Assembly: GCF_921293095.1 (NCBI RefSeq)
Contig: NC_060247.1
Coordinates: forward strand, 110,875,111-110,939,110
Source of the DNA: Ischnura elegans
Lineage: Eukaryota > Arthropoda > Insecta > Odonata > Coenagrionidae
DNA: 64,000 bases
Reading direction: 5' to 3'
Position 1 is the stretch's first letter; each line of letters starts with the position of its first letter. This document shows positions 4,062-45,838 of the stretch, piece after piece. The translations under genes were made by a program, and so were the position numbers. The notes beneath the pieces were generated by a model. It made no database searches. It worked only from the letters and a program-made list of their open reading frames with translations, and had not been told where the DNA came from.

Positions 4062-4583
4062 CTTAGCTGCAGTATCCCTGCTCCCCCGAACCAAATCCAT
4101 ATTTACTAGGGTCGTTTTGGTAAATATTTCTCTGGTGCGAGCCTGCTCTGTATAATATCAGCGCTTTGTGTGAATTTGTGGGCGACTCCTTTAAGGCGCA
4201 GCGAGAGCTAAATCTTGCTTGTTCGTTGAACGACATTTTTTTTCTGATTCGATAACACGGCCAATAGGCCAAACTTCTCATTTATTTTCGCGCGAAACGA
4301 TGTTCAACCTTTGAGCTTATACTCTCCGTGTCTAAAGGTCAAATTCCCAAATCGCTGCCCATGAAGACCCACGCCTACATCAGATTAATTTTCATTGAGA
4401 CACAAGTTGGATAGGCTTTGGGTTGGATAGGGCTGGATAGATTGGAGACTTTTCACGTAAGACTACTGAGGAAGATTCTTTTCTGTCGGAATACTCATTT
4501 GGATCACATTCCGAGAAATATTCGCCCTTCACTGTGAAGATGACCTCGGCGACTTTGTTGACAGTACTGGGTAAGTACTAGCA

Positions 4584-5118: not shown

Positions 5119-7055
5119 TAGACAACTTCAACAATCATGGCTGACCTCCCCCTTGTTTTGATCCTGGGTATGCCCTTGAGTACTAGGCATGCACTCTGGT
5201 TCAGTCACATAAAACCTTTTGTGGCCCCTTTGTGGCGACTACCCGCGACACACACATTCTGAGGAGGCCACTAGTTAAGGGCTCTCTTCCTCTGACATTT
5301 ATATATTCATAAAAGAGTACGTCTGTTTGTCTTTCCGCTATGCATTTCCATATGACTGCACAGATTGCAACCAAAGTTAGAACATAGGTGCATCCCATGC
5401 TCCCAAAGTCCTTAACACATTGCATACCTGGGTATTTAAATTCCTAGGAATTCTGGGTGGAGGTGTTGAGATTGGAAATATGTGCCTATTAGGGCGTAAT
5501 GCCTTTGTTTTAAACATGGTCAAAAAGCTAATGTTTAGAATATAACTTTACCCAATCAAACGTTATGAGGCATCAATTCATTATGAATAACGAACAACAA
5601 CTGAAAACGTACTAATGAGTACATATTGTACGCTTTAAAATTGTTTAAGTTGACATGCCTAAATGACGAGAATCTTCGTCATCCATCCAGAACGTTCGGG
5701 AAAAAAATGACGAGAATCTTCGCCATCTGTACGCAACGTGTTAATGCTGCTTGCTACTTCTGGTTGTCTTGGATATGCCCTTTGCTCATTACTGTTTGTT
5801 GCGTACCTTCAAACAACTTGTGGTTGGACATCATGCTGGGTATACACATCTCTTGACATGCTCAAAGGGAAAAAATAACTCTAAGGACTCAACACTTGAC
5901 TATTAATCCCTTGGCACAAACATTTTTGCTGGGGTATGAGTTCACGCGACTTTTTAGGTCTGCGCACACAGGGAGAGGAGCTAGGGGGGGCTACAGCCCA
6001 GCTCGGGTATTCGATTTACACGATTCGATTCGATTTTAGATATAATGGTAATTTTGTTTGGGCCCCCACTACTGCTGTGAGGTTACCCCCCTCTTGGACC
6101 CCCCTTGTCCCTATCTTGGATCTGCGGGGACATGTTGGTGAACTTGAACACACATGATCACCTCATGGCAGCCTTCCTGTAGGCACACTCATTCGTTGTG
6201 AGGATCTCTGTCACAGTTATCGAGAATTTGATATCTCATCTCCTTATTTTATATTATTATCCATAATTTTTCTCATCCTTGAATTGCGACCGCACTTCTA
6301 AACACATGTTCACAGAAATTGACATGCTTATTCTCGGCTCGTTTGCAGATGACTGGAAAAACATCAGACTCTTCGGAAGGCTCCCCAATAATACACCCAA
6401 GTGGTCCGATACCCCTCAAAAGCTCTATTCTCACTGTAAAAATACAGTCATGCTACTTCTTGAACCTACCCTGGGAATTACACAAGCTTAAAACACAAGA
6501 TCTTAAACTAATAGATGAATATCTAAAAGCAACTTGTCTATGCACATCTGCTTTAAAAAACATTATTCCTGAGAGGTATTGCTTACCACACATCAAGAGA
6601 CAGTGAAAATTTATGAATTTTGCCTTCCCTCCCCCCCCCCCCTCCCCTATGCAACATCCTCATCTGCCCCTGCTTCTCGTGGCACGTTGAACTGCAAAAT
6701 AAGCTGGAAAAATATATTTTTATACTCCTAGGAGACTTATTATAAGGAACGATTCAATGGTATGTGGGAGGGTCCTCATAAGTACCCTTTTATCCCACCA
6801 GAAAAAATACTTAACTCAGCCATAGCACCTGGTGTCATACACTTGGAAAGGAACTGTTTGTATTCTAGGACATTCTAGGATTTCGCTATAGAGATATACT
6901 CCTCAAGCAGATTTCTTCTCTAGCCAACAAAATATCACATGAGCTGGTAGTCCACGTCATGAAATTTGAAACTAATTACTGACGTATTTTTACTACTGTA
7001 ACATGACTGTCAATGGTACTATGCCATTTAATTTCTCTTTATTTCTTACCTGCAG
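5119..7055. other. Intronic or upstream sequence of the cysteine-rich gene
   Basis: No exon could be defined here. The missing start exon of the gene should lie in this region or further left. Bases about 5850-6873 are absent from block B, with a CAT microhomology at the join. A C-run lies near 6630. Confidence 0.4.
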
Positions 7056-7156
7056 GTACATGTGTGCCTCTATTTATTTTGGTGGCATCTGATTCACTTT
7101 TAGCAACACCCCCACCAGAGAGTGACTACGAAGAATGTTCAAGAAAGGCTATGAAT
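7056..7156 (+). CDS. Exon 1 (copy A)
   Basis: Preceded by a strong pyrimidine tract and acceptor ending CTGCAG, followed by the donor GTAAGT. It begins with the last two bases of a codon, so an upstream exon should end in phase 1. It encodes the apparent signal-peptide core and the first mature cysteine. An ATG at 7013 is in frame with no intervening stop and could be an alternative start if the acceptor is not used. Confidence 0.78.
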
Positions 7157-25326: not shown

Positions 25327-25725
25327 TGGACCAACTTTGTATGCTATTCAATAATAAATTCTTCTCATATTAAAAACATGCAGAAGAGCAATGGCGAAAT
25401 AATTTTATTCACTGATTTTGTGCACATATTTTTCTATCCCCTCTTTTTGATTTTATTGCTGTTTGCTGGAATTGTATCCCAGACAGCACACTGGTAACGG
25501 TATACATATACCGTAAGTATACCAGGTGTATACTGTTTCCTTGAGAAACTGTATACATGTTTTAGATTCTAAGTATACATAAACAGTATCCTGAAGCGTA
25601 TACGTATACAGTATACGAAAGGTATCTGTATACCTTTCATATACTGTATACGTATGTGCTACATATGGAAACAGTATCTGAGAGGTATATGTATACCTTT
25701 CATATACTGTTTCCATATGTAATCT

Positions 25726-25977
25726 CAGTGGCGGATGCATATGGGAGGCACGCCCCCAACCCTTTCCTGGCCGCCCGCATAACCAAACATTGCAGGACTA
25801 CAATTTTAACTTTTTTATGTCATAAGATGGCTTTGTATTTCATGTGCGTATAATCAGTTCAAATAACACTTTCTTAAACTTTGCATCTGACTTGATTATT
25901 TTTTTAGGATAAAAGTAAAGGTTGGTCAAGATATCTTTTGCGCCCCCCTCTAGAGTTTTTTTCTGTATCCGCTACTG
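25726..25977. mobile_element. hAT-like MITE CAGTGGCGGATGC
   Basis: Bounded by CAGTGGCGGATGC and the inverted GTATCCGCTACTG; flanks TGTAATCT and TGTAGCCA may be a decayed 8-base duplication. The interior resembles 17514-17754 ('actttcttaaactttgcat.tgacttgatta'). Confidence 0.65.
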
Positions 25978-26984
25978 TGTAGCCATTAGTAAATAATATG
26001 TGCCCTTTAAAGGTTACTCTGTCCGTATACTATTTCCATATGTAGCCTTCAGTATACACAGCGTCCTTTCCAATGGGCTAAAACCTTTCCGTTACTTGCG
26101 TGCTCCTATGACCCCAAGAGCTACACTGACAGGAATAAATCTAAATTACCTCAGGAAGGGCCACTCACGCCAAATATGTGGAAGGGTAGGAGCCAGACGA
26201 ATGGTAGTCCACGTGATGGTGTCACGTGAAAAACACTGTTGGAATTTAGTTGGAAAACCTTACCAGCTAACTCTTCCCTGAAAACATGGAGTGGGACCTG
26301 TTCGCAAAGGGCAGGTGCCATTCACGGCAGCGAGGTTGGCAAAGCAAATAATTACGTTTGTACATGTATCTTCATTCTTTGTAAAGGTATCGGCTCGAGC
26401 CGCTACTCTCTTCTCATTCTCCTTCTGGTTTCATTGGATAAAGACGTCGTCTCATTTAATATCTTTAAACTGATTCATCAGTGAATTTATTTTCCCCGGT
26501 TGGCTTCAGGCAGCAGGCTAGCCCTGGCAAAAATGAAGGAGGCTGATAACGGTGATGGAGAGTTTTTTATCATTTCTGTTCGGAACACCCAAGAACGCCG
26601 TCCGCCTGGGTTATTAAGAAATGCAGATTAATTTAAAAAATCAATGAACTGCCTTAAGATGTAAAAAATCCTGCCATGAAAAGTCCCTATTTTCATAAAG
26701 AAAAATGCTCTTCGAAATGTGATTTCAATCGTGCTTTTTTATCTACTGAGGCGATGAAACAAAAAAGATATTTTTCAGTGGAATTTATTCCTCAAGTCAT
26801 AACGCGAAACTTAATTTTTTTGAATGCCAAGATTTGGACTCCCGCCCGTGATTTCGACCTATCGATAGTGGATTCCGTCGATAGTCGATTCCACCAGTAG
26901 TCGATTTCCACAGAAACATATGAAAACATAAATGCGTCCATAACCGCTTTCACAATGAAAGACCCCGCGAATAATGTTACGTTC

Positions 26985-27200
26985 ACTGTGTTGTGTTCGT
27001 CGTTTGCGAAATTGATCCTGCCGAAGTTTATCAGCCTCTTAAGTTCTTCATTTACTTGTTTCACCTGCACCTAGGCAATCAATTACCGTTATAACTTAAC
27101 TTTGTAGTGTTGTGTTTGCTGTTTGCGAAACTTGTCCAATGAAAGTTTATCAACCGCTCAAGTGCTACTTTCGCTTCCTTCATCAGAATCTGGGTAAGTA
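26985..27200. repeat. Two divergent copies of a ~115-base unit
   Basis: The core gtgttgtgttYgtcgtttgcgaaa...gaagtttatca occurs at about 26989 and 27108. The second unit ends in a donor-like CTGGGTAAGT. It may be a duplicated leader exon of the surrounding element; no open frame supports it. Confidence 0.45.
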
Positions 27201-28179
27201 GAAGTGTTGCCATTGCCACATTTTTTATTTTAAATGACGCAAATTCTTAATATTTTCAACCTTCTCACACTTTCTGAGACTGAGGGATCCATCTTCTATT
27301 GATTGAAAAACTTTGCATTTGCGTAAACTTTAATTTATTTATGTGCTTGACGCATTTAATCACCGTAGTGTGGGAGGAATGTGAACAAACATTTCTCGAC
27401 TTTACTATTTATTAAGTCATTTAAAGTTATTTACATTTTTTTAATTAGCTGTTGTGCCATTAGTGTTGCTTCCTTTAAAATGTAATCATATTTGTTGGAG
27501 ATCAGAAGGTATTTCACTCTTTAGGTTTAGACAAATTGGTTTTAAATTATTAAGAATTAAATTCTCAAATTAATTTAGTACTTCGATTATTCAAGGTGAA
27601 TAACTTATCGTTTTTTACATATAGAACTGATGGGGAAGTTTTTCGAAATATCCTTTGTTGAATGTTGGTATTTATATAGCTTAAGGGAAAATCCCATGAA
27701 TAGAGATTACTTTTTAACAAAGTGACTTACTTTAACTAGACAAATTAGATGTATCACTAATAGATTCTAATAAAGTTTATGTGATATTATTTACAGGTGT
27801 AGTAAGGAAGAATTTTCCAAATTGCCAATGATGAAGAAATACGAGGAAAAGTGAGCTTGTTCTTCATGGATTCTTGTGACCTTAAGGAAGGATAATCAGG
27901 CAAAAACATTGATATTGATCCTATTGGTCTTTATTTTCGTTTACATTGAATAAAGGCATTTCTAACGGTATTTGTTATTTATCAACACTCATCAAAATAT
28001 TCAGAAAATATTTGTCTTATTATATTTGACATCTAAATTCTTACTACTTCTTAAATTGACTTTTAACTTACTATGCTTAGTGAATTTACTCATACGATAA
28101 GATGTTTTTTTTACATTGGATGAATAGACTGATTAAATATTACTGTGAGAGGATCCGCTAAAACCTCTTGACGATAATT

Positions 28180-28560
28180 AAGCACAAAATGTGGTTTACT
28201 GTCCGGGCTTTGCCCCTTTATTGTGTCTAATGAATTCAATCTCTTATGTATTTCTGAGATTGTGTGGTATATTAGTAAAAATATGTGTAATATTTAGTTA
28301 AATATAATTATTTTGTTTTAACAGCACACATGTGTTTTCCATTTCCTCTGTAGACCCTGTAAGACCTGAATTTCACAGATTTTTTTTCTCTATTCAATTT
28401 ATTGTCAGCAAGAAGTCTCAGACAAACTGGTAAGTGTTCCCACAGAACAATGCAAAACACACTAGCATGTTACACTATGTTTATGAACGCTCTCTGCTGC
28501 TGAGACAGGATGTTCTCAAATGTACGTAAACACTCTGAAATGCTGGAGATGTCACTCACA
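28180..28560 (+). repeat. Sequence homologous to 44610-44960 (inverted)
   Basis: Shared words in the same order include tagaccctgtaagacctgaat, aatgcaaaacaca.tagcatgttaca and gttctcaaatgtacgtaaa. This is a truncated copy of the element whose CCCTGGCGAAAA end lies at 44353, without its GAGCGTTT array. Confidence 0.75.
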
Positions 28561-29667
28561 CTAAATGACAAAATGGATGTACTAGTACTTCCACGCTTGC
28601 ACTAAATACACACTGGCACCAGAACAGAGATTTAGTTTCTGTTTTGCTACTTTAATTTCAGTTTTAATACAGCAGTGCATGTCAACAACTGCATTCAGGA
28701 TTTTGCTCAATCAAGAAAAATATACTCAGGGTGTTCAGTGATTGGGAATCTGGAAATATGCATGATTTTTGGTCACTCAAAATATCCATGAATTTTTGCT
28801 CCTGCTTGGAATTTAAAATCTTTTATTCAAACTCGTTTCACATGAAATTTGTCTGTGCAAGGCCAATTTTCAGGCCTATTTTATATACTTACATGCATGC
28901 TTCAAAATGCATTGATTGCATTTTAAATTGCACTTTATGAGTGCAAACACGGATTAGATAACTTTTTCAATTTTAACAAATTTGTTGATATTCCAAGTGT
29001 TGCATTCATAAAATAAGTGAATAATTTCTTTGAAAAATGTAAGAATTTTAACTAGGATAATACATAATTATAGAATTAATTAAAAGTATTCAGTAAATGT
29101 AGTTTTGTAAAATTCATATACATAGCTTTTATCTCGTAAGATTGACCTGGAATTTAGTAAAATTTCCCTAGAAAACCTGGAATTCTGCAGGAATTTTTCT
29201 GCTTTCATACATATATACGTCTTGTATACTGTATATATATATGTCTTGTATACTGTATACGTATACTGTATATGCGTGGTAGGAGGACATTTGCTGCGTT
29301 ATATACATTTGGTAGATGGTGGGTAGAAGGTTTTTATACGTATACAGTATACGTGTATCTTCTACTGTATACGCATGTTATACACTATGTATACGTATAT
29401 TTAATGTATACAGTAGCATGTGTGCTGTCTGGGATGCCATTTACACAAGGATTTCATAATGAAGAGTTGATTAAAGTCACAGTCCCAACATCTTCTCAAT
29501 CACATTAAGGAAGGGGTGAGAGGAGGGAAAGTTTCCATGCATAAGACTTTCCTACAATCAATGAGATGACTATCCATAGAGATACGTGAAAATCGAGCTT
29601 TCAATAACAGTATTCGAGACTCAAGTCACCACTAGCGGCGCTAGTGTCGGTGACGTAAATTTCCAAT

Positions 29668-30071
29668 ATGGCCGACGAAAGCGGGATAAACTTTGAAGCT
29701 GTAAGTTGTGGTAAGTGGCTAGTCGTGCGTTGGAAGTGCTTTGTAGTGTTGTTGTAGGGAAGAGAAAGGGAAAAATGTCTGCCAGAGTGATTCTAAAGTT
29801 TGAGGAGATGGTTAGGTATTTGGGAGGGAATGTAGGATCGCGATGTGTGATTGAAGGCGAATGTGTTTTTAATGCGGGGCTCGTGATGGTAGTGGGCACT
29901 CGCGGAAGTAGAGAAGAAGGCAAAATAAATATTTTATCGTTTGTATTGCAAACAAGTGCACTTTCTAAAGATCCTGTGCAAGTTTCTGGCTCATTAGAGG
30001 TCACCGAGGAGGGAGATTAGTCTGTGCGAGTAATGAGTTGTTCGTGCAAAGCGGGGAACTCGGAGAAATAA
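29668..30071 (+). pseudogene. Decayed N-terminal part of a SWIM zinc-finger protein
   Basis: An ATG at 29668 opens a 43-base exon ending TGTG/GTAAGT. A 47-base intron ends TTGTTGTAG at 29757. The second exon continues in frame for 86 codons to a TAG at 30018-30020. Past that stop the same frame reads a short stretch with CxCKAG (30039-30056), the first half of a SWIM-type CxC...CxH zinc finger, then TAA. The middle contains VFNAGLV and LQTSAL segments like those I associate with N-termini of SWIM/YqaJ proteins carried by animal transposons. Two stops and loss of the CxH half make it non-functional. Family assignment is inference. Confidence 0.5.
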
Positions 30072-30839
30072 TTTTGGAGATTTTTAATGTTTTGGTAAGG
30101 ATTGGACCAACGTGAAATGTTTTTAGCTTTAGTAGTGTATTGCTTATTATAATTTGGCTCTCTCTAATTTGTAATAAATCTGTATATAGCTTTGAACTGG
30201 CATAAAATTTGAGGATAAGTAACCTTTTGTGTTATCCTTTGCATTATTGCTCACCCTTAGATGTAATCGAAATAGCTCTATGAGTATAAATGTTTTTCTA
30301 CCAATGAACGTGCCTTCTCATTGATTGACTCAGTTCCCAACAGGCAAGTAAGGTATCTTATTTAAATTTTAGTTGTCTTATGTTTCAAAGAACCCCCTAA
30401 TAGGCTAGACAGCAATGCTTTCAAAAGTGATATTTAAACTTGCAATGTATGGTGGTCTTCTTGTAAATGAAAAAATACCTATTAACTTCTTTGGAAATAG
30501 CTAAATTTTCATGCTTAATTATTCCCATACTTTTAACGCTCTAGAATAATACCTTATAATTAATTTTTTGATATAACTGGTGCTTGTTATCATTAGTATC
30601 ATAACTTTTCTTTGGAAACTGTTGGCGTGATAGTTAGTAAGGACAATATATCAGGGGATTTGATCTTATTTTTTAGCATATCATTCAGGAAGAAAATTCC
30701 AATATGTCTTCTACGACTTGAAAGTATTCGCAAATTCAAATTTTGTTCAAAAATATTGAGTCCTGGGTCATTATGTGACTTTCTCTTAATATTATAGTCA
30801 TTATTTTAAGAAATTTCTCTTGAATCATTTCTGAAGCAT
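30072..30839. other. AT-rich sequence, nothing recognised
   Basis: No open frame of note, terminal repeats or RNA gene seen. Confidence 0.5.
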
Positions 30840-31330
30840 TGGTGTGCCTCATACTATGGATTCCATATCACAGTACAGTATTCCAGATCAGATCTCTCTA
30901 GAGTAGCATAGAGCAGTGATAGTCAGTTTTTAAAATCTCTACAAATTCAGTAAATGAATGGCAACATTTTGTAAGTAATTTATTCAATATGCATTTCAAA
31001 GCCTAAATTATTTTCAAATAAAATTCCTAAGTCAGAGAAGCAACTAACTCTCTTCAAAGGGGTACTAGCTAAATCATAATGACATAATAGGCTTTACTTT
31101 TGAAAAAGACCTTGCACTTATCAAAATTTAATTGCATTTGGTTAGAACATCACCAAGAAAGTAAATTGTTAAAGAAATTTTTAAGTTTCTTGACATTCTC
31201 AGTGCAATCAATAGGGTGGTAAATTTTTAGATTATCAGCATATTGGATACATTTTGTGGGGGGAATGTAAGAACATCTTTATTAATAAATGTAAAAAAAG
31301 TAATGGTTCTAGGTCGGATACTTAATGTAT
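30840..31330 (-). pseudogene. Non-LTR retrotransposon reverse transcriptase fragment
   Basis: Reading the minus strand across several frame changes gives the order typical of a Jockey/CR1-like ORF2: an INDV-like segment, a DNLKIYHPI segment (the usual DDxK position), FNNLLSW, NQMQLNFDKCKV, DLGILFENNLGF.MHI and a SDLEYCTVIWNP end. Stops and shifts are frequent. Clade not resolved. Confidence 0.75.
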
Positions 31331-32884
31331 GCCCAAAGTTGCCCAAATGAAAATTCTTTTTGAAATGTGGATTTTTAACGATGACAGTAGTGTCAGGCTA
31401 AAAATGATGGAACTCCTTCATAATGAAACAAGTTAACAAGTGAATGAAAGAATTTTGATTTTTGTGGAGAGCTTTTGATTTTGTAGCTCATGGTAGTCTT
31501 AGAAATTGAAAGGAAGCTAAGCAACCATGTTTGGGATAGCCATAATTATGGAGCTTGCAAGGCATATGGAGCATAAAATTTAAGGGTAGATTTAGACTGT
31601 AAGAGAAGAATATCAGCAGGTAATAATCATAGGTCTTCTCAATGAGTCAAATAAGATGTGTTTGGCATTGCAGAAGGGTTACTGTGTAACTTCAAAGCAT
31701 TTATGAAACACTCCTAATCATGAACTATTGTAATAATGGGTCATGGTTGACATTACAATTACCTTCCATTATAGGATAAGCAAGCATGCAATATTTCACA
31801 GGACTCATGGGGTTGTTAGGGATGTAACTTTAAGGCCCTATGAACTAGTTTAATTTATCTCAAGTCAACACATCTGTTTCCAATGTAAGTCAAAGCATTT
31901 CTTTTCTATGGAAAATTACTTCTTCCTATATGTTTCCTGCATACATGATCGAAAACGACTTAAGCGAAGTTTAGGGTGAGTTCTCGCTTTGGAATTGCAC
32001 TGAGGGACGCAACAATTCCGATTGGAATTGTTTTTCCTCGGCAAAAACTTCGTACCTCCACTAGCCATTGCCAGAATCACTTCAAGACTAAGTGGCGATA
32101 CCTACTATCTAACGCAAAACCCGGAATACCTAAGTAACTAACCTATCACTAACAACTATAAAAAGTTTTAAACTAATGATGCGTGTAAATAACCAGTTAA
32201 ATGATTTAAAAAATGATCTAATAAAACTAGTACACTAGAACAATGCTAACCTACTTAAAGAAGAATAACAATGACCCTTAAAACTGAATGAGCTATTCTA
32301 AAAACTAGAGAGATTATCAACAAGATACAGATTACTAAAATTTTCAATCAATAACCGCCTAAGACTACAGAAAATTAAGGTAATAATAAATTAAAATCCT
32401 ACAAAAGAGGACCACGCGAGCCTCGTAACTAATAGCTTAATTAATAACTTAAAATGGTATACTAACTCAGCTAAAACTATGTTACGATGTAATTAATTAT
32501 CTCTAATACGACGAAAAATTAAATTATAGAGATTAAAGTCTACGAAAAAGATTTTAAATCTCAAAACACTGCTCAACACCACTGAATCTCAACGTGCTCC
32601 TTCTGAATGCTAATAGGGGTATCCCTCAACCTGTACTTGCGAATTCGGCCGCTAGATAGCGTCTCTCTTGTCTGGAATCTCGAATATGTATCGTATTTTG
32701 TAGCATCTATTTTTTATTTTCATAATGAGGTAGGTGACGATAAATGCATTTCCTCCGAGAAAAATTTCTGCTTGAGATTGCATACATTTTGCATACTCCT
32801 ATGGTTGTCTTTATTAAAGCAGTGAAATATTACGATGATACTTCGACTTGTTTCTTCAGGAAGACCTGCTGGCATATAGGTACA
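31331..32884. other. Unassigned AT-rich sequence
   Basis: No gene supported. A possible second degraded reverse transcriptase scrap lies near 31440-31690 on the + strand, too weak to annotate. Confidence 0.4.
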
Positions 32885-33170
32885 CCCTGGCGAAAAATCT
32901 GTGTAACAAATATGTGTAAAAATATGGTACATTATGTAAAATTACACATTTACTACACTTTTCTACTCACAAAGTTACACAAATCGTACAGTCTGTGCAT
33001 CCTGTACATCATTGATACCACAGCCGTACTCAATGTGATGCATCAGATGTTACACAGATTGTACCACTAAGTTACCAGTCTATTCATGCACCAGAATTGT
33101 ACTCAATATATACACATCAATCACTATTTTTGGGGACACAAATGTCATCACAATTTTACCACTGTGTCGC
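32885..33170. mobile_element. CCCTGGCGAAAA terminus with GTTACAC/TGTAC array
   Basis: Starts CCCTGGCGAAAA, as does 44353, then carries many copies of TGTGTAA/TTACACA and TGTAC/GTACA on both strands over about 250 bases. The other end was not located, so this may be one arm of a larger or truncated element. Confidence 0.55.
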
Positions 33171-33789
33171 GATACCATTATATTATGTAATTATTATTTT
33201 TTAATATAAAGGATTAAATATCGTATTTTGAAACTTGCGCCAAAGGCCAAAGCGACCGGCGGCCATCTTGCATACCATGTCCCAACAGCCGTCGCGCTGA
33301 AACATTCGCAGCTACTGTATTTTGTGACTTTTCGAATTAAGCTATGCTGTAGAATCTTATTTTACAAGCAAATTTACGTTGAAGTACGCAATGGAAGAAG
33401 TAAATAATCCGTGTTTCGCAATGAAGACTGGCAAAAAGGAATTGGTAGAATACTATTTCAGGGACTTTTTAAATCGACGCCGTTTTAAGTTCCTGTCTGT
33501 TTCTGTGTACTGAATTACCGGGTAAAGTGGATCCTAGCGGCACGAAGAGAGATATAAGAATATATCCTTGTCAGCATCAACACATATCTGCTGAGCTGAC
33601 CATGTAAATGTAAGTAAATGGAACATTTTTTCTATTCGCAGTGGATGGTAGCAAGGTCAGAATGAAAAGTTGTTTTAATTTCTACGAGTGACCTCGATAT
33701 GAAGGATGAATCTTCAGGGCAAGCTTATTTCTAGATGGAGGAAAGTTAAAATAATCTATGCACTGGCATTTCCTCTTTACTTTTACAAT
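33171..33789. other. Unassigned sequence between element arm and hAT-like element
   Basis: A 40-codon frame at 33391-33513 (+) follows a GC-rich stretch with a GGCGGCCATCTTG word, but there is no splice donor or relative to support it as a gene. Confidence 0.3.
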
Positions 33790-33989
33790 ACCTGCACCAG
33801 TGGCGGCTCGTGAGTCAAATGCTGGGGGGGCGCACTCCACCGGGGGGTCATAATTTTTTAATATTTCGTGCATTTTATTAAGTTTTTACGGCAATCAAGG
33901 AATAAAATTTTCTGATGCCATATGTTCCGTTTTTTTTCAACAAAAATACCTAGTTTTCCTAATAAATCTTGATTAATAAATACTAAATG

Positions 33990-34495
33990 CAGTAGACTCT
34001 CGGTCATACGAATCGGCATAGTCCGGACTCTCGATTATACTGATCAATGATCTCGAATTATAAAAATATATTTGCTGCGATATTTTGAAAATACAAACGA
34101 AAATACGTAACTTTAGGTTTTAGCGCCTACATTCTTCGTGCGGATATGCCCGCAATACACTTATGTTGTTCGTTTTGCAATCATAACGCGTTATTTGTCA
34201 AATCTATTCGACATTTGCAAAGATTTAGGTAGCAATGACACTTGTAACTCCTGAGGAGGGAGGGGAGTTTCACTGACTTCCACTAGGCAACAAACACTAC
34301 TAGAATGCGCGCGCTTTGCTATTGCAGATGTAAACTTTGATTGCGGTGTTCGCGTTGCTTCTTGAATATAGTATGATTTAAAATCAATAATTAAACATTT
34401 CTCACACATTTTTAACAAAATCTGAAATACTCACATGCCTTTAGTTGTATTGCAGAAGTCCATCCTTCTTTCCTTTTGCCCAGCAAAGTGATCAA
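33990..34495 (-). mobile_element. pogo/Tigger 3' fragment
   Basis: CAGTAGACTCTCGGTCATACG at 33990 resembles a pogo/Tigger terminus, followed by a second copy-like CTCTCGATTATAC. A 75-residue minus frame (34191-34418), with a possible Pro/Leu-rich tail, may be the decayed transposase C-terminus. The opposite terminus is not found. Confidence 0.35.
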
Positions 34496-36384
34496 TTACA
34501 CGTTCGTTGAAATCAGCGCCGGACAACAATTTCTTTCCGATTGAACACATAGCAAGGGCACTAGTCTATAAATAAACAAGGGACTTACTATACAAGGGAC
34601 GACACAAAATGGGCCGACAAAAAATACGACCAAAAAGAACAAAGTGCCAGGACACAGATTTGGGGACAATAGGGTAGTTTCCTTCATCAAAGAAAACAAT
34701 AGGCAATAATTGCGATTCGTTACCCACCATTAGTGTATTCATAATATACAAATTATTTCGTTTTAGAAATGCCGGTTTAAACGAATGGCAATGGTCCATT
34801 TTTATCCTCATTTGAAAAGGACCAGATTGGCGCCCATGCGATGCCACTCCACGTGACGTCACAGGGACCTAGTTTCTATAGGAGAAGATAGGAGTTATAC
34901 ATCGTCTGAGGTTACCAATGCATGCATGAGGCGCAGAGCTCAGGGAAACATGTCTTAATAATCACTTATTAAAACTGGCTAAGGTCGGAAAGTTTTCCTC
35001 GTTTGATAATGTATTAATAATCCTTATTTAAGCCAAGCGCTACCAGCCAGCAGGGTACTCAGCTACCCGCTGGCAGCCTGCGACGTATCAGCGCTAAGCC
35101 TCGCCTCAAGGTCACCTCAACGGGCGGGAGGGGGAACCAGAAATACGACGTACGGAGAGATTTCCCGGCATTCATACTTATGCGTCGCGTTTTCGCGCGC
35201 TTGAAATTTTTCACTTTTCATTTAAACGCGAAAAATAGATATTGTCATTTAAAAATCTAAAAGCGTGAAATACGTACTCAGCAGCTCGATTCTGTAAATG
35301 TGATATGGCCGTCACAAGCGGATTTCGTCAATGTATTCACGGCTTTGACGCTGGAGCGATTCTGAAACTTTTTAGTGACGTCACTCTCACAGCCGCGTCC
35401 GTGAAAGTATTCACGCCCAAGAGGGCCCGTGGTAGCTTCGTCGCGGCAATGCGCTCTAATTTTTCATTATGAATTTACGCTGTGATTGATAATTAATAGC
35501 ACATTATTCATTAATTACGATGGTGGCTATTTCATATTGTCACTTCCCATAAGTAATATGTATTAAAAACAAATAAAAGAAATGCGTAAAGTTAAATTTA
35601 CATTCGCGTCCTATTTAAATTGATTGGCCTTCATTGCGATTGAAGTTGGTGGGAAGTTAAACCTTGCGCTGAGGGTTTGACAATTATCTTATATTTGTGC
35701 ATCTTCTAGAATGTACAAGTAAAATACTCACAACTTAATGTTCATAATAATTTGGAGTAGAACCAATGGTAAAAGTATTGTGCGGTACTGAATGTTAACA
35801 GATTTATTTAATATTTGTTTCGTAAGTTCAAGCCTTCGATTTGTTTTTATTAACGAGAATGGAGGCTCTTTACATACCTCCGCTACTTTTGCATGAGCAT
35901 CAATGTCGACGGAGGCAATAGATGCACATACTTCGGCGGCAGATACGCGATATCAACAATCCCTGCGAGACGTGAGATTGGCGATGGATCACTGAGTTCA
36001 CACCACGATTAATTCGTAGACGATTAGATGGCTTGCCGGGGCATACTTTAGTACGTTAAGATAAACATTGATCATCTATTCCATCTCTTCCATGCATTAT
36101 TGCTGCCGTTCAGTAACACGACCAACATGATTCGTTTTTCTGTTGACACAATAGAAATACTAAGACATGTAAACATCTCGCCCTCTAGCAGAAACTGTTA
36201 ATAATCTACTCGTATTCGCGCCATAAACATTTTCATCAGTATAAATCGTGAATAGTGGCATGTGCTTGCACAATCAGACACATATATGTATACGCACCAC
36301 AGCGCATTTAAAATTATGTACTGAAATGATGAGAGCTCAAACGCATACGAGAATGAACCATTATTAAATAATAAAATAACACTT

Positions 36385-39300
36385 CCCAGCCAGCACAGAA
36401 CAGGACGTTGCCCCTTAAATTACGGCAACTTTCCATCAACGATAAAGAAACGGCTGAATACGTTGCTATAAACATGACGGCAACGAGGCAGCAACGAAGG
36501 GGCAAAAATGCCGTTAAATGTCGCCAACGATAAAGCAACAGTTTCTTTTCGGTGACGTCACAGACACAAGGGACACCTACCGGCACTTTCGAGAACTAAC
36601 TGGGCAGCATCGCGACTGTGGCGCTACCTAGCGGGATTTTTTGATACCACGTTGATACTGCTACCATGGCGGGGTATTCCAATAAATTCAAATAATAATT
36701 GATAGGTCTGGGTTTAATAGAGAAATCAATCATTGACAGAATTTTGAAAATAAACTTTTATTTTCGCTGCAAACATTAAAATCCATTAGATATTCAAGCA
36801 AACGGTATTAAGAGGTCACAACAGCAATGATATCAAAAGCACCTAACACACCACAGAGCAACTGATTTTGTAATCAGAGCAGCCCCACCTGGGGAAATGA
36901 CAGTTGGAAAAAACAATGAGCTACAGGGTAGTTCATAACCGAAAATGGAAAGAAATAGGTCTCCATCAATACAAAACAAAATATAATGCTAACCAAAAGA
37001 TAGCATGATCATTTTCAAGTGGAAATTATAGAATTACAGCAATATTTATGTTAAAGCCTCAAGCACAATAGATCCCCCACGAGGAACAGTACGAAAAATA
37101 TCAATCTCACACATGACTCCAATATCAAAATAGGAGAATAAACAAATTATAGTTTTACATCATTAATTACATAGTAAGGGTTGAGGTCTTAACAGAAACT
37201 TGCATTCAATTTTTTGGAGTCTAGATTTAATTTACTTTCAAATTTTCTGTTGCAGCAGATCCTAACAGGCAGGGGATTGTTTTGTAAAGTTATATTTGAC
37301 ATAACATATTGAAGTCTTATTCCGAACACGGAGGCATGAAATGCAATAGCAACACCAGTGTGCACTATTTAATGTGGCCTCTCATTTTAGTGGTCAACTA
37401 CTTAATTACCATGGAACACAGCCATTTCATACAAGGACATACACATTCAAGGTTGTGGTGACAGGGAACATTAGCATGTGGTAATTAGGAAATGTTATTT
37501 TTAAAGAAGTTTTCTTCATACAATGTACACATTCAGTTGTTCACTGCCATAGCAAGCACGATGCCCTATTATGAATGCCCTATTATTAAATTGCTGTGTT
37601 CTATGACAATAAGGAAGCTGATCACCACAAGCTAACACACCCTAGCGTTCCTGCAGCATTTTATGCCTCCATATATGGAATAAGACGTAAGCTTCACCAC
37701 TCCATGGAGCTGTTTAAGGGTAGGGCATTCTATAGCATTTGAGCTAGGTTCACAGGAAAGAAATGAAGTAAAATTAATTTATTTCAGCTATACGAAAGGC
37801 TATTCAACCAAACTTGGACCTATTCCTAGCAGCATTTGGCATTTTGAAAAATCATAAAAAATAGGGCATTTAAGAAGGTGAAGAAACATTCCTTCTCCCT
37901 TGTCAGGCAAAAATCAAGGAGCATTAATGACATAGCTGTGTCTGTCGTAACAGTGATCAGTCGCTGACCTCACCTTATCCCACAATCATGTTATGAGACT
38001 ACAAACAAAACTGCCTTTCCACACTGACAGGTTCTGAGATAGGCAAATTGAAAGAATCATGTTTCTTCGAGATCCCCTTTGAGTTGCCTTTCAGAACACT
38101 TTCTCGTTTCTTATTCCCTTTCTCTGCTCTGTATTTTGAGGCCTGGGATCATTCCCTGATGCTTCTTTTCACACTGATAGTACCAAATCAGGCTTATTTT
38201 GGCTTTTACACTCCCTGCAAGATAATCATAATTGGATTAGATATTATGCTGAATATGAAATATGAACATATGCTGAAAAGCTCTTTTCATTCAACTGTAT
38301 TCCAAGATAAGGGAAGAGTAAATCGAAAGCACCAATGATTAAAAAATACTTACCAAATGAGACATTTATAATGGAGCTAAAATGCACTTCTTGTTTTCTG
38401 AGTGTCCCTTCAAACAGAAAGACACAGCTAACTCATTCTATGTTAGGGTAGAACACTTGTTTTTGACTTTTGTTAAGCCCAGTCCTCATTTGATTGTTCT
38501 GACTGCTCTTAAACATGATGTTCGAAGATCTTTCCTTCATGAAATAAAATCTGAAAAATGAGATGACCAGATAATTAATTATCTATGGTAATTGCTGAGA
38601 ACCATTGAACATAGTGGCACAGCATTTTTAATTTCTAAGTACATCCCAGAGTTATCATAAAATTAAATATCAACAAGGAGGTGATGATGGTACCATAACT
38701 TAAGTTTAAGACTCAAAGTGATAATCTATACAAAGTACCATGAGCATATTAACACTTAGGAGGCTATGAAGTCAAACAGTTGACAATGTAAATGAAATAC
38801 CAACCAAATACTCCTCTTTCAGGTTCTTTCCCAGCAAACAATAGCAGTGAAGATTTCTCATGATTTGCACTGGATAAGGTCCTCCAGATCTCATTCAAAC
38901 GTTTCGACAAGCAACTTACCCATCGTCTTCAGGGATTCAAGAACCAAACGATTTAGGAATCCAACCTTGGAATCCAGAATCCCTGGAGACGATTGGTGAG
39001 TTGCTTGCGGAAACATTGGAAGGAGAAATGGAGGACCTTACCTGGTGCAAATCCTGAGAAATCTTCCCCGATAACTCTGACCTCATTGGGTGCACCAAGT
39101 GCTAACAATTGGACTTCACTGATTCTTCAGAAATAACACTCCAATTCTATAGAAAAGTTTAAGGCTCCTTCACTCCAACATTGTTTGAGGAATCTTTAAG
39201 TGCAACCTTTCCTTCTTAGGAGGCACTCATGCAACTGAAAACAGAATAGATAAGCTTTACACTTACATTTGCACATGATAAAGCACTCAAAAAAGCAAAT

Positions 39301-41497
39301 TCTTATATGCAAACATTTACCAGGTGATGGTGGTTTCAGTATTCTGTCATCATCAGTCTCCATAGATGAAGAATTACTTACATCAGGATACTTTCAATTC
39401 TTTTTTGTCCTTTTCCTTTCCCAGTATTTTTTGATTTCAGTGACTAAAATGCCTCCATGTCTGTTCTCCGTCTTCACAAGTAGCCATCTCTGTTCAATAG
39501 CGACAGCTGCCACTACAGTCTCTGGAAGATGATTATTATAAAATGCCACCATTAGCCACACATTTCAAAGCATGAAGTCAATGTCAAAATTAACTAAAAT
39601 AAAAATATTTAATACTTGGCTTAGAGAACTAGTTTAAAATGTACAACCAAGTCAGTGCTCTCACACACACACACCATGAAACAACCCCTTTGAATACATT
39701 TAAAAGGCACCCTGCCCTTGCAAGTCAAAGATGTTAACCCTCCCTTTAATCAAAACAAATGCTCACAAATATTGTTGCAAACTCACCAAATGGAGGCATG
39801 CAGAACTTCACGCCCAAGATACCCCATTCCTCACTGAGTCGAGAGCCATTTTATGACCTGTGACACTGAAGACCAGTTATAGCCTAGGGTAATATTCAAT
39901 AATCTTATCTCCATCCAATTTTACCCATGACTATGCAAAAGCCTGCACTGTGAGGCCAGTAAATTTTTTTATGTGGAAGAAATATTAACACTTGCCAAGG
40001 CATCCTGAAAAAAAGAGGAAAAAAAATCATGACTATGAGGCGTTCACTCTTCAGTTACTTAAAAACATGAGATCATAAAATTCCATTGAAAGTAAAGTTA
40101 ATTATTGTATATGAAGACTAGTTAATAGTGATGCATTAAATGATTGCACACTCCAGTAATTGAGGAAATATCTCTGCGATTATGCTAAATTTTACTGCTC
40201 AACTCAATATTTCAAGAGTGTTTGGTAGGGGGTGAGTTCTCACCAACGTGCAGTACTGAACGTTGCACTCCATTGAATGAAAAACTTAAGCGTTCCATCG
40301 TGCACCCACAAACTCGCAGTATGAGCACCCACCAGACATACATCGATCCATACTATAGAAACACAACAGAACTAACTCAATGGTAATGAAAACTTAAGTG
40401 TACTGTTAATGAATTTCATAATGAACGACGGTAAACAGAGTCTAGACTTACCTTTCACGAATCCTGGCGGAATACGGTGGTTGAACCCTCGAAGAGGCTT
40501 CTAACTTGCACTGCCCTAGCCAAATCCAAAAAAACTTGTAACCACTGAACACTTTTTCTCACTAAGAACACGATTTAACAAGAGTTAAAATCACTCGCGA
40601 AAACTTAAGTTAGTGAAAATTACAAACGAAAATTCACGTCAGTGAAAATTAGGAATACAATAAGGTCAGAGTACGACGGGTGGACATGATAATCGGATAT
40701 GAAGGTGAAATGAAATGAAAAGTGAAAATGGAGAAGCTGAAACCACGCTAAGTTTGACGGATGAAGTAAATGAACAATTTAAGTAAAATTAAAGTTCTTG
40801 AAAAAATCTATTTACTAAAGGTTTGGTGAACGAAAACCGTCCCTCGACCATTCAAAAAGGAGAAAAGCATCACGACGAACACAAAGCATGAATTCACATA
40901 TCAACAAAGCTATGTACCAAAGTTACTATGGCTACCGGCAACGGCGGATAACGGGTTCTTCCCAAAGTGCATTTCGCATTGCGCGCACGATGGTTTCGCA
41001 TGGCCTCGCTGTCGTGAGCAGACGATATGATCGAGCGTAAAATTTCATGCGAAGGAGGAAATCGTAATGGTACAGCCTTTAATTATCAATGGTATTTTAG
41101 TAATTTCACTTCGCCGATAATAAATATCCAGAGAATCGTCAACCTTGAGAGACGCTTATTATATTATCTCAATCTTTTTCCATCGCCACCGAGTGACTTG
41201 GAGACATATTAATTTATAAATCCACAAAATAGTCGAATAAATACCACTTATCCCATAAAACACATTATGCAAAGTTAATTGCGTAAGTCGTGAAACCTTT
41301 TATTTCTAGCAGATCGTTAATTAGAGCGAATGCATTCACATAAAATAGGATATGAAGCAGCCGTCCAAACTGAGCAACTTCACGGCAACGCGTTGCCGTC
41401 ATGTTGATATCATCCACGGCGCAACGTCAAAGGATAAACTGTTGCCGCTTCGTTGTCTTGGACGTTTACATAAACGTCGGCGAGTGTGCTGGCTGGG
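36385..41497. mobile_element. DNA element with terminal GCAACG/CGTTGC arrays
   Basis: Bounded by CCCAGCCAGCAC and its exact inverse. The first 175 and last 135 bases are filled with GCAAC/GTTGC words in both orientations. The termini resemble the CCCAGACAGCACAC of 25478-29433. The interior (about 36590-41360) is AT-rich, contains a foldback at 38853-39062 and has no recognisable transposase. Possible donor sites exist (for example minus-strand GTAAGT near 40450) but no gene model could be closed. Confidence 0.7.
38853..39062. repeat. Foldback with two ~86-base arms
   Basis: Arms 38853-38938 and 38977-39062 are inverted copies at roughly 85-90% by eye around a 38-base loop. Outer edges read atttctca / tgagaaat and inner edges agggattc / gaatccct. 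It would form a long RNA hairpin if transcribed. Probably a small foldback MITE. Confidence 0.8.
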
Positions 41498-42066
41498 TTG
41501 TTATCATTCCGCGTAAGCATTAGCTCCATACTATGAGGAAATAAGAGCTAATTGTGCAATTACGAGCCCGCTACGTGATAACTGACTTCGATACGCAGCA
41601 CTTGACAACATATAAAAGAGGTAATATACAGTTTATAGCTACAAACTAATTAAGCAACCGTAACTTATCATTAATAGGTACTTTTAAAAGAAAAGACCTC
41701 ACTCAAAATTGAGTAAAGAAGTATTATTTACTTTGGGAGTGAATATTCCACGGCATTGTATATGTTTCTCTATGGTAACTGAAGTTGCAGTTGGCCGCTG
41801 AAGTAAGTTTGTATCGGAGATTCTGATTCGTTCCTCGCGTCCGCACAGCTACCAACATAAGAAACTTAAGTGATCGTTCGCAATCCGTCAAACATCTCAC
41901 GACACAGGCTTACAGGATCGCTTGAACGTCTTTCACGGTGAGAGGCGTGAGAACTCCGCTGTGGTTCGAACCACGCGAAGCACAGGTATGACATTTACAG
42001 AATCGAGCTGCAGGAGTAATAATCTTTCGATTTAGGCAATAAAAAATAATAGGAAACCACCCTATT

Positions 42067-43565
42067 TTTCCCTATATTTCCCTATAACAAAAACGAGCAC
42101 TGCTGATTAATTCAAAATTGTCTTCTTGAATGTACACACAGCACTAAGAAACTTCTTAATCGGCAATTAAGCACAGTTAACTCCTCAAAAATGATGTCTG
42201 AACTCATTTCACTCCGTTCTTTCCGAGAGTCTTGCGTTACTATAAGGAAGACTCAAGGGAGGTAGAAGTCGTGGTCCACTAATGCTGATTCAGCTGAGGG
42301 ACGAATTTAAGGTCAGAAAAGGCAGTCAAGCAAACAAAAGCCGTCACGGACCATCTCCTTGAGTCTAAGATTCATATGTGGTAAACACACGAAACACCAA
42401 CGGGTCGCACTTGGAATAACCATGTCTTCGAAATCATTGCAATGATATAATAGAAAATAAATTCTAGATCGTAAAGAAGACGACTCTGAACCACAGATAG
42501 GAGCTGTAAGGATCTCCGCACTGATATGAACTCTTCGAAGCCAATTAAATCAGACCCAAGTGGACATTTTCCGTTGGACAGCTACCGCTCTGCCACTGAG
42601 GAATTAGGTGAACATGAACTAATAGAACAAGGACGGCTAGAAAAATGATGAACCTACACACAAAAGGTGCATTGTACTCGGAACTTCTTGACATTCAATG
42701 AATGACTCTATTTAAAGTGACGTTTTACGGGTTAAATCATGTTTAATCCTTCACCCTATCACGCATGCACCTATTTCTTAAATTATAAATCAGTAGGGAA
42801 TGTTAACTGATTTTTCCTAATACTGCAGGTTTTTGATAAATTTATCTGAAAAATAGGTACCGCATTTCTAATCACCGGGAAGATATGAATACATTGTTCA
42901 GGCCTAAACATTATAATATTAGTTTCCCCAAGGTTCTTGAAATTCGTAATCATAACAGAACTGTGGCAAATACTCGAGAATAGTTTTCCTACGTCAATAC
43001 GGCCTTTAACTGGTAGGATTTTATGTGTTCCGGAATTCAAACACCCAAAAACGCAAGCATAATGAGATAATTTATTTTCTGTAGCAATACCTACCAATAA
43101 TTAAAAATTAAAATCGTATAACTACACCCAGTACAGTGACCATTCTGATTCCGTACGTCCCTTTTCTGTGGCAGCACCAAGTAGACGCCAGATTATACGC
43201 CCGCCGGCCTGTGCAGCGATGTCAACTCACACGTCGCTCTGCGCATTCTCGGACGACGTCCCAAGACTTCCATAAGACACAACGTTAGACGCGTCATAGC
43301 ACCAGCGGCCCCCACCACTACCACTCTCCATATAACTGCATGGGGATGGATTGGGACGTTTCGGCCAGCGCCCCACGGCTACAAATACGAACTTCTCGCG
43401 CTATTTCTTTTCGTGTTTTTCCAACACTTTCGATGTATGGGACTGAAAAAACACTTTGATTAATTAGATGTATAATTATAAATTAATGGATATTTATTTT
43501 TTTTTACTTTTTCAAATATTTGGGAGGGGCGGCGTCCGAGAGTCCTTATGGGCAAGCCGCGACTG
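42067..43565. other. Right arm of the hAT-like element
   Basis: No recognisable protein. A 104-residue minus frame at 42783-43097 has no motif I can identify. A tRNA-like A-box scrap (GTGGCAGAGCGGTAGC on the minus strand) lies near 42565-42600. 43140-43400 is relatively GC-rich. Confidence 0.4.
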
Positions 43566-43573
43566 ACCTGCAC

Positions 43574-44045
43574 GCAATTTACTGGCAGTAGTCGTCCATA
43601 CAGACAATAGGCATCCATATTGAATTTCCGTTTCTCACCCAGGATATCCTATATATATATATAGCCATGTGGCTATGGTGGGTGGAAATGGGTTTAGAAG
43701 GGGTATCTGATTTTAAAAATTTAGTTCAGCTGCTAATTGGTCTGCATTGAAATTGCTGAAGATAGGAAAATCTGAATGCTAATTTAAGTTGGAAAAATGT
43801 TTGGGTAACTAGTACTAATTTTGAAATAGCAAAAACTGGTCTATGGTCTTGTTCTATCTTTTACGAGCATTCAGGACTTTTCCTATCTTTGGACCGTTTA
43901 AATGTTCCCTGACTTTGACTTTGTTGACTGAAATACAATTGCCTTGGATGTGGTTGGTTATGCAAATAATTGTGTTGATGTTAAGGGCAAATTAGTTGAT
44001 TGAAAGTTTATCACTGCTTGAGATTTTTGTATCATTTTTGTGATA
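43574..44045. other. Spacer, nothing recognised
   Basis: A short TATATA run near 43650, otherwise unremarkable. Confidence 0.4.
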
Positions 44046-44216
44046 CCCTAACAACACATGGACATCCAACGGATGTCCGACGGATATCCAAGGCGGTGTT
44101 GCGGATGGGCCATGGATATCCGATTAGAAATTCCGGCGATATCCCTTGGGCATCCGTCGGATATCCATATGTCCCAAAATCCGATATCCATAGGACGTCC
44201 CCTTCCGGATATTAAT
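44046..44216. mobile_element. CCC-ended arm with GGATATCC array
   Basis: Starts CCCTAACAACACATGG, similar to the CCCAG.CAGCACA termini, and contains at least ten variants of the palindrome GGATATCC (such as CGGATGTCC, GGATATCC, GGCATCC, GGACGTCC) in 160 bases. The opposite end was not found. Confidence 0.5.
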
Positions 44217-44352
44217 ACCATTTTTTGCATATTGTTGCAAGAATATGCACCAAATAGATCCCTTCACATGATAGACAACCTTAACAAGGTGGGAGGATTC
44301 TTCATTCAAAAGTTTCATTGGTGTCTGCTTAGTAACCATTGATGAATGATTA

Positions 44353-44960
44353 CCCTGGCGAAAATGTGAGCGTTTTCAGATTGTTTAAGAACGCACCATG
44401 GAGGTGATCATGAACAGCGAAGAACACTCAAAGAACACTTTTTCCAGTGCGTTTTCGAGCGGAAATGTGAACGCCTTGGAGTGTTCTCAAACACTCTACA
44501 GAGCGTTTCACCGAGCGTTTAGCTATGTTTGCGACTGTTTGTCAATGTTTCCAAACGTTCATGAGCGCCCTGTGAGTTACCATCTTCATCGTTTTGGAGC
44601 ATTTACGTACATTTGAGAACACCCTGTCTAGGCTATCGAGAGTGTTCATGAACGTAATGTAACATGCTAATGTGTTTTGCATAGTTCTTGAACGCTATGG
44701 GAACACTTGCCGGTGCGTTTATGAACTCTTGCATTGAATAAATTTAATAAAGAATAAATCGGCGAGATTCAGGTCTTACAGGGTCTACAAAGGAAATGAA
44801 AACCAGATACAGTTTGCTGTAATGACAAAACAATTATATTTAACTAAATATTACACACTTATTTACAACAACACCACACAATCACCTGGGTACTTTAGAA
44901 AATGAATTCATCATGCATAACAAAGAGACCACGCCCAGGTGGTATTCCACCTTTTGTGCT
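44353..44960. mobile_element. CCCTGGCGAAAA element with GAGCGTTT/GAACACTC array
   Basis: Starts CCCTGGCGAAAA, then about 270 bases with numerous GAGCGTTT, GAACRC and GTGTTC words on both strands, then the segment shared (inverted) with 28180-28560. The right end is lost where LINE sequence begins. Confidence 0.55.
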
Positions 44961-45229
44961 TAAATATTGTCAAGAGATTTTAGCATATCCTCCCTCACTT
45001 AGTCTATCCATCCAACCTAAGAAGTAGTTACGTAGTCCCAACCCATAAATCAGGTGATAAGACTCACACCACTAATTACAGACCTATTTAAATCCAGTCA
45101 TTTGTTGTTAAGATCTTGAGAGAGAGTCTTGCACTTAAGCCTTATATCCTCTCCTACAAACATATAGCTATACCAGAGCACCATGGTTTTCATGAAGAAA
45201 GGTCTTCAACTACGTATCTCATGGTCATT
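44961..45229 (+). pseudogene. LINE reverse transcriptase N-terminal fragment
   Basis: Across frame changes the translation shows a VPTHKSGDK...NYRPI stretch, a KILRE segment and an EHHGF..ERSSTTYL segment, in the order of non-LTR retrotransposon reverse transcriptase motifs 1-2A. It ends abruptly where mariner sequence starts at 45233. Confidence 0.7.
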
Positions 45230-45232
45230 AAG

Positions 45233-45502
45233 GGTGTGTTGCTGGTCGATATTTTGACTTGCGGCGACACAATCAATTCAACAGCGTACTGTGCGACTTT
45301 ACAAAAACTGCGCCGCGCTATTCAAAACAAAAGGCGTGGCATGCTGAGTGCAGGTGTGGTTATGCTCCACGATTATGCCCGTCCACACACAGCAAATCGA
45401 ACACAAGACCTTATCACTTCTTTTGGCGGAGAACAATTAAACCACCCTCCATACATTCCCGATCTAGCGCCGAGCGACAACCATTTGTTTATGCACTTGA
45501 AC
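45233..45502 (+). pseudogene. mariner transposase, central part
   Basis: Contains the mariner hallmark around the second catalytic Asp (HDYARPHTA) and the third (DLAPSDNHLF), i.e. the D34D arrangement. The N-terminal DNA-binding half is missing, replaced by LINE sequence. The C-terminal end continues at 49283 after a 3.8 kb insertion. Confidence 0.85.
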
Positions 45503-45838
45503 TTAGACCATTTAAGTAAGTATTGCCGTTCGGGCGGAACGCTGTGGCCAACATCGCACGGCGGGGAAGTGAGTGGGATGAGGGAGCGTGACGTCACGGT
45601 TGGGACTGCAGACGATATTCCGTATGCGCGCTTGAGATATTTTAACGCTCGTCCGCTGCAAAGTTGCTAAAAAGTGACGATATGGGGCACGCAAAATGAT
45701 TATACACTTAATAAATACATTTTTACGATGAACTAAGGCATTTTATAGCCTTGAAAGTGCGCAAAAAGCTAAATAAATCAAGATAAAGCGAGAAGCGATC
45801 GTATAAAATAAATTGATGAAGAATGTCATATGTAAACA

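Follow-up and report, generated by a model that had tools for sequence, protein, structure and literature searches.

The described systems closest to the sequences analysed here are transposons of the CACTA group. In the accessible portions of DeMarco and colleagues (PMC1636069), animal TRC elements are characterised by a CCC terminus, a 2-bp target duplication and a Transposase_21 domain; the duplication is given for 7 of 14 copies of SmTRC1, and the termini listed include CCCTAGTAGCAC... and CCCTAGTAGCACC... in Tribolium and CCCAGTCAAC in Aedes. A similar terminus, CCCAGCCAACATTGAC, is given for Hydra Spongebob in the available part of PMC4298943. In plants, following the sections of PMC2613891 to hand, maize En/Spm requires both its transposase and a second protein, TNPA, which binds subterminal repeats; the subterminal motif is not constant across CACTA families (soybean alone has two types), and the proteins binding these motifs share little similarity. 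Here we analyse a 64,000-nt stretch (the window) of the 1.72 Gb genome of Ischnura elegans, contig NC_060247.1, positions 110,875,111 to 110,939,110, in which element ends carry dense arrays of short words. We lean towards reading the window as a collection of ends and non-autonomous copies of several animal CACTA families, served by Transposase_21 enzymes from elsewhere in the genome, with a BEN-domain protein as candidate binder of the arrays. In what follows, contigs are given C-numbers (the window lies on C2), and L-numbers label the genome stretches read, except for L109, which is a protein.

A repeated short word was present above chance at seven element ends in the window, all of which start with CCC, and the word differed between elements. 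Expected counts were derived from how often each word occurs elsewhere in the window, and repeated 7-mers at each end were tested against 500 dinucleotide shuffles. Element 1 (25478–29433, 3956 bp), a non-autonomous element of TRC/CACTA type, is bounded by exact 13-bp inverted termini (CCCAGACAGCACA) and by a 2-bp target duplication AT (25476–25477 and 29434–29435). Its left subterminal array (25478–25740, plus strand) holds 11 copies of GTATAC, with 0.11 expected, and its right array (29190–29433, minus strand), composed of GTATAC and ATACAGTA, holds nine copies of GTATAC (0.10 expected). Element 2 (36385–41497, 5113 bp), also non-autonomous with inverted termini (CCCAGCCAGCACA), lies within a duplication TT (36383–36384 and 41498–41499); its left array consists of four copies of CGTTGC/GCAACG (36385–36560, plus strand; CGTTGC n = 4 vs 0.03 expected) and its weaker right array of CGTTGC and AACGTC (41330–41497, minus strand; n = 3 vs 0.04 and n = 3 vs 0.02, respectively). 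Three single ends, all on the plus strand, complete the set: CCCTGGCGAAAA at 32885–33184 with a TGTGTAA/TGTAC array (TACACA n = 6 vs 0.15 expected in 32885–33170), CCCTAACAACACA at 44046–44216 with a GATATCC/GGATATCC array (GATATCC n = 8 vs 0.02) and a further CCCTGGCGAAAA end at 44353–44740 with a GAACACTC / AAACGCTC array (GAACAC n = 6 vs 0.17, AAACGC n = 5 vs 0.07). No partner for these three was found within the window, the 44046 type having been searched by exact pattern only. Repetition of 7-mers exceeded that in shuffled sequences at six of the seven ends (p <= 0.004), with p = 0.03 at the end at 41497. An earlier note on this DNA had counted five such ends; those it named were recovered at or next to where it had placed them, with their words enriched, and the count rose to seven.

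That the arrays belong to the ends of DNA elements, as the note had proposed, was borne out by target duplications, by empty sites and by the presence of arrays at both ends. A 2-bp flanking repeat (AT, TT, TA, GA, AC, AA, TC or CT) was seen in all 14 pairs of CCCAG[AC]CAGCACA ends, namely the two window elements, L009, L010 with L011, and L012–L021, which had been picked by paired termini and not by their flanks; L022 was left out because both of its ends face outwards. When the joined flanks of element 2, minus one TT (500 bases), were used as query, the empty site was uninterrupted in 40 of 40 scored places (97–100% identity, four at the top score), in agreement with the TT duplication; element 2 is inserted into another young repeat. 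A second copy of element 2, with the duplication CT, is present in L019. For element 1, the junction of the empty site was spanned by two of 40 rows, C2:110960144 (95%, query positions 1–418) and C2:111007898 (92%, 1–289); two other rows were the window's own flanks and the remainder covered a single flank. Given the duplications in 14 of 14 pairs and the empty sites of both window elements, the CCCAG[AC]CAGCACA elements are real DNA transposons. Element 1 is also young and recently amplified, since its 40 scored places, the window's own included, are 98–100% identical over approximately 520 bp. Further copies of its flanks lie downstream, at distances of about 60 kb and 108 kb (91–95% identity; C2:110900338 to 111010588), and mark a locally duplicated stretch that takes in the window. 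The genome-wide search with termini that the earlier note had suggested returned CCCAGMCAGCACA 752 times (379 + 373), compared with 27 (10 + 17) for a reversed control. The corresponding figures were 608 (305 + 303) vs 63 (26 + 37) for CCCTGGCGAAAA and, for the CCCTAACAACACA type of the 44046 end, a weak excess of 134 (68 + 66) vs 60 (41 + 19).

The variety of words behind a single tip was assessed on 100 unique CCCAG[AC]CAGCACA ends, drawn from 96 of 100 termini listed (four were not included) and from the copies found in the element 1 search, after removal of three duplicates and of two L022 ends that fell below 180 bases. These ends fell into 34 clusters by subterminal sequence, one representative of each being tested against 500 shuffles. 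Repeated 7-mers reached p <= 0.01 in 12 of the 34 clusters and in 12 of 100 control segments (100 shuffles each; Fisher p = 0.004), the controls being taken from the window, which itself holds repeats. Three of the 12 significant clusters are ends of one GTATAC family, and one is a 131-bp fold-back rather than an array. The words found behind the same tip comprise GTATAC, GTATTAC/GTAATAC, CGTTGC, TCGAATA, ATGGAATCC and TTGTATACAAAT, and the array keeps its layout from word to word, including where the 13-bp terminus is identical. To this extent the earlier proposal of a changing motif with persisting layout stands. The change is not always wholesale, and words fully unrelated between families are not what was observed, several of them having TGTA/ATAC/CAGTA cores in common; CTGTA was enriched in seven and CAGTA in four of 15 chosen arrays, a preselected set scored by an arbitrary threshold and with no shuffle control. 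The fold-back itself occurs at C1:39202847–39202977 and C2:122732537–122732667 (L020 and L021); it has a CCCAGACAGCACA tip and is flanked by a 2-bp duplication, and its word array is not significant; judging by this element, the tip alone may be enough for some copies.

Sequence comparison ties one of the window ends to a transposase-bearing family. The stretch 32885–33184 matches the right end of L116 at 94% over 301 bp, and in L116 a Transposase_21 domain (PF02992, E = 2.1e-11) lies in a frame that runs uninterrupted for 804 aa; judged by this match, the 32885 end is an end of the L116/L120 family, in whose two copies the array-bearing end CCCTGGCGAAAAATCTGTG stands beside an uninterrupted transposase frame. 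In L121 and L122, two copies that are 99.6% identical over 7.1 kb, the element starts with CCCAGCTAAAATTTTC and a CTACTGAA array, and this terminus lies 0.7 kb past the end of a 774-aa transposase frame. A probable end CCCATACAAAAATATC with a ACTGTACT array, of which the repeat unit is long (~60 bp by eye), was found with the 844-aa frame of L117 (one copy). L115 combines an 882-aa frame with a AATACTGG array, its exact end being probable only, because the sister copy L119 has an unrelated element directly adjoining this end. A further array of TGTATACAATT, starting at CCCAACGAAAATTTTG, lies at 7360–7640 of L115 and is probably the end of another such family. Genome-wide, PF02992 matched at 26 places, of which 17 fall in open frames 668–882 aa long, and a search with protein L109 gave 69 rows of transposase places. 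Fifteen of the 26 Transposase_21 matches fall on four small contigs (C13, C14, C16 and C17; 10–21 Mb), which may constitute a special element-rich part of the genome. In 11 aligned transposase frames, pairs of Cys residues and a TDG motif are invariant, and long variable N-termini are accompanied by a conserved Cys cluster.

From their sequence features, the elements most likely belong to the animal CACTA (TRC/EnSpm) group, and the class is not new. The CCCAG[AC]CAGCACA elements were placed there on account of their tip, their duplication, their array and their kin. The earlier note had set these elements apart from En/Spm; a CCC start with a 2-bp duplication is the published hallmark of animal CACTA, and the 32885 end sits in a Transposase_21 family. 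Its contrast with En/Spm, in which each family was said to have a single motif and different termini, is not upheld either, in that plant CACTA families differ in motif as well, according to the available text of PMC2613891. A KDZ/Zisupton origin was considered and rejected: Zisupton elements likewise have subterminal repeats, but their target duplication is 8 bp long, as opposed to 2 bp here. PF18758 (KDZ) had no match in the genome, and control genomes were likewise without a match. A literature search with the terminus strings retrieved no transposon paper by title. In the zebrafish element EnSpm-N6_DR, which carries p53 sites, an array is not described in the accessible part of PMC3485254.

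Some of the transposase-bearing families also carry a second, divergently oriented gene. In L121, L115 and L117, three of the five families read at length, exons on the strand opposite the transposase end in a BEN-like domain. A profile (A2) built from four of these stretches, one family contributing two near copies, was searched against PDB and matched only BEND6 (2.6e-7) and 4ix7 (RE55538p, 0.017), the latter of which we take to be Drosophila Insensitive; the L121 domain alone matched only BEND6 (0.048). Homologues of the L121 domain were found at 38 places in the genome, two of which pass the Pfam BEN cut-off (C6:40266270 and C8:49932980). Their positions were compared with 64 transposase places merged from PF02992 matches (7 of 26 added) and L109 rows (12 of 69 taken as pieces of places already counted). 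For 12 of these 38 BEN places, a transposase was located no more than 15 kb away, in each case in divergent orientation. When positions were randomised on the same contigs in 2000 trials, with the largest observed coordinate standing in for the span of each contig, 0.51 such neighbours arose on average and never more than 4. Fewer than 12 independent families are represented, because copies are present among these loci: C2, C3:27 Mb and C7 have identical scores and represent one family, and C13 and C14 correspond to L121/L122. At least four of the 12 loci (C13, C14, C3:125.7 Mb and C8) show the same order of terminus, transposase and BEN place, with the terminus CCCAGCTAAAATTTTC (variant CCCAGCTAAAAATTTC) approximately 0.7–1.2 kb past the transposase match and BEN on the other side, among the 100 of 141 pattern matches listed. 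A direct Pfam BEN search of the genome produced 13 matches, eight above the cut-off and five below it, and four of the latter five stand beside transposases (C2:86610509, C3:27225282, C7:64460739 and C12:48914334). The accessory genes also contain coiled-coil-like stretches, as indicated by composition and by weak matches below Pfam cut-offs.

These observations suggest a candidate for the array binder. According to the available portion of PMC7764960, NAC1 selects ACATGT and NAC2 binds a non-palindromic word, and in that of PMC6317261, a dimer of Insensitive binds CCAATTGG, and a coiled coil contributes to the larger multivalent complexes that this protein forms. Because BEN proteins bind short words, some of them palindromic, and Insensitive multimerises, the BEN protein is a good candidate, and we propose it, by analogy, as the animal counterpart of plant TNPA. 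Under this model, a Transposase_21 enzyme from autonomous copies elsewhere in the genome would cut at the short conserved CCC... terminus and the element would insert with a 2-bp duplication. The BEN protein, probably multimerised by a coiled coil, would bind the subterminal array and gather both ends for the transposase, as TNPA does in maize En/Spm. The tip would stay constant because it is read by the transposase, and the array word could drift or be replaced together with the BEN protein, so that each family would come to mobilise its own copies. The suggestion of the earlier note that binding site and protein changed in concert is plausible, with the product of the BEN gene as the candidate protein. 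For the broader claim, that animal CACTA elements form a two-gene system with BEN in the role of TNPA and that families sharing a tip exchanged their word together with their BEN protein, we consider the balance even.

A number of findings weigh against this reading and bear on the alternatives to it. With regard to class, no transposase was tied to the CCCAG[AC]CAGCACA ends, all copies read being non-autonomous. On C2, each of the four transposase places is more than 100 kb from any terminus listed, by eye, and C1 has no such place listed; tblastn detected no transposase remnant in element 1, the window or L001–L088. Moreover, the animal TRC motif (LVI)-D-x-(LM)-H-x3-L-G is complete in only two of the 11 frames, a looser D-x-(LM)-H-x4-G being present in 10 of 11 and L-G in seven of 11; the class assignment was kept because it is carried by the Pfam match, the tip and the duplication. 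The missing transposase would fit a different superfamily that happens to combine a CCC start with a 2-bp duplication. Published TRC termini, in the text at our disposal, are nevertheless close to those found here, and L121, with its Transposase_21 frame, starts with CCCAGCTAAAA, which makes a separate superfamily scarcely probable.

With regard to the arrays, the enrichment of 8-bp palindromes (p < 0.05) was confined to four of 20 ends tested, so that the description of the words as often palindromic holds only in part, and palindromy as a general rule was discarded. An array at every CCCAG[AC]CAGCACA end is likewise not what was found, with 12 of 34 clusters significant and many clusters behind the same terminus showing no detectable array. 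Such array-less ends, together with repeat units as long as the one in L117, are what would be expected if arrays were by-products of slippage or end rearrangement with no role in binding. We hold this to be quite improbable, given that arrays occupy both ends of elements 1 and 2 and that the array-bearing ends of two families, and probably of four, adjoin uninterrupted transposase frames.

With regard to the BEN gene, no BEN domain was found within the stretch read of L116 and L118, the other two families. Single-sequence Pfam searches left all three BEN-like domains below the cut-off (L121, E = 0.0016; L117, 0.081; L115, no match), and no transposase stands within 15 kb of 26 of the 38 BEN places. 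The absence from L116 and L118, and the long variable N-termini and conserved Cys cluster of the transposase frames, would suit an enzyme whose variable N-terminal part recognises the array as well as the tip, leaving the BEN protein as a regulator or anti-silencing factor. Set against this are the divergent BEN place beside the transposase at 12 loci and the precedent of En/Spm, whose subterminal repeats are bound by TNPA, a protein additional to the transposase (PMC2613891, in the sections available); we regard a transposase acting alone on the array as unlikely. Furthermore, none of the eight BEN matches above the Pfam cut-off lies near the transposase places listed, by eye. Together with the palindrome binding and multimerisation of Insensitive described in the accessible text of PMC6317261, these eight places would be compatible with arrays that draw host factors, such as host BEN or insulator proteins, for transcription or shielding, the element's own proteins not being the binders. 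A fixed host factor would hardly account for words that differ between families in one genome, and we attach little probability to it.

Several further features were recorded in and around these elements. The CCCTAACAACACA and CCCTGGCGAAAA ends lie 293–307 bp apart at three places at least (window 44046–44353, C2:110962351/110962657 and C2:144127437/144127144), which suggests a compound element amplified as a unit or, for the nearby pair, local duplication. A stretch within element 1 (28149–28560, minus strand) is an inverted relative, at 76%, of 44571–44992, and a 72% similarity between L118 and element 1 appears to reflect an unrelated repeat. At 45092–45667 of the window lies a transposase fragment matching Transposase_1 (E = 6.9e-7), presumably mariner-type. 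The length of a 9.7-kb copy at C2:9808413–9818149 was attributable to two inverted reverse-transcriptase inserts: in L009, positions 1985–7216, the reverse-transcriptase element occurs twice in inverted orientation inside a copy of element 1, RVT_1 being matched in one and the other being near-identical by eye. A GIY-YIG-like tail, also seen by eye, leads us to take these inserts as Penelope-like. An 11.5-kb copy at C1:162907753–162919287 (L010, L011) was rejected as autonomous, its transposase-like frames belonging to a nested element of another kind. The latter, bounded by GGGTCATTCCA... termini, has long inverted arms together with a TACT repeat (by eye), and encodes a transposase-like protein of FSDGCAGRYKN type in a frame with no Pfam match.

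The original observation is real and is mostly explained as animal CACTA, the two-gene architecture being the added part. What had been a loose observation becomes a testable system, in which the same tip is combined with different arrays and related autonomous families carry a candidate reader gene. If the BEN protein does read the array, these families would provide ready pairs of BEN protein and target word from which BEN DNA choice could be learned, would allow a direct test of the idea from soybean CACTA elements that subterminal repeats and binding protein evolve together, and would suggest a transposon origin for some BEN genes. Judging from the sequence comparisons made here, what looks new is the likely BEN partner of an animal CACTA transposase and the scale of word variety within one animal genome. 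No link between BEN and CACTA was found in the literature searched, mostly by listing rather than by text; in the part of PMC5704228 available, the text mentions CACTA, and 'BEN domain' appears nowhere but among the references. The principle of a varying motif and binder is already known, as it is stated in the sections of PMC2613891 referred to above.

Compared with Insensitive, BEND6 and NAC1, as far as the partial sources describe them, the accessory protein shares the BEN domain, and both the short palindromic target of Insensitive and NAC1 and the multimerisation of Insensitive may have their parallels here; the three differ in being host factors. To our knowledge, none of them is encoded beside a transposase. 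With TRC and other animal CACTA elements (SmTRC1 of Schistosoma, those of Tribolium and Aedes, and Hydra Spongebob/EnSpm-4N1_HM), the present families share the CCC start and similar termini, together with the 2-bp duplication in the CCCAG[AC]CAGCACA elements and Transposase_21 in the transposase-bearing families, so far as the available text goes. They differ in that the word 'subterminal' is absent from PMC1636069 and a BEN gene is not mentioned in the accessible portions of PMC1636069 and PMC4298943; SmTRC1 has an internal repeat in its 54-bp terminus and a tandem-repeat region (PMC1636069, same portions), so a related layout may exist there. With En/Spm, Tam1 and soybean Tgm/Tgmt* they have in common, going by the excerpts available, a conserved tip, family-specific subterminal repeats and a transposase accompanied by a second repeat-binding protein, for which the BEN protein is the candidate here. 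The plant elements, by contrast, have the tip CACTA and, in Tgmt*, a 3-bp duplication, and their TNPA/TNP1 proteins arise from mosaic transcripts, whereas the putative counterpart in Ischnura elegans is encoded by a divergent BEN-domain gene.

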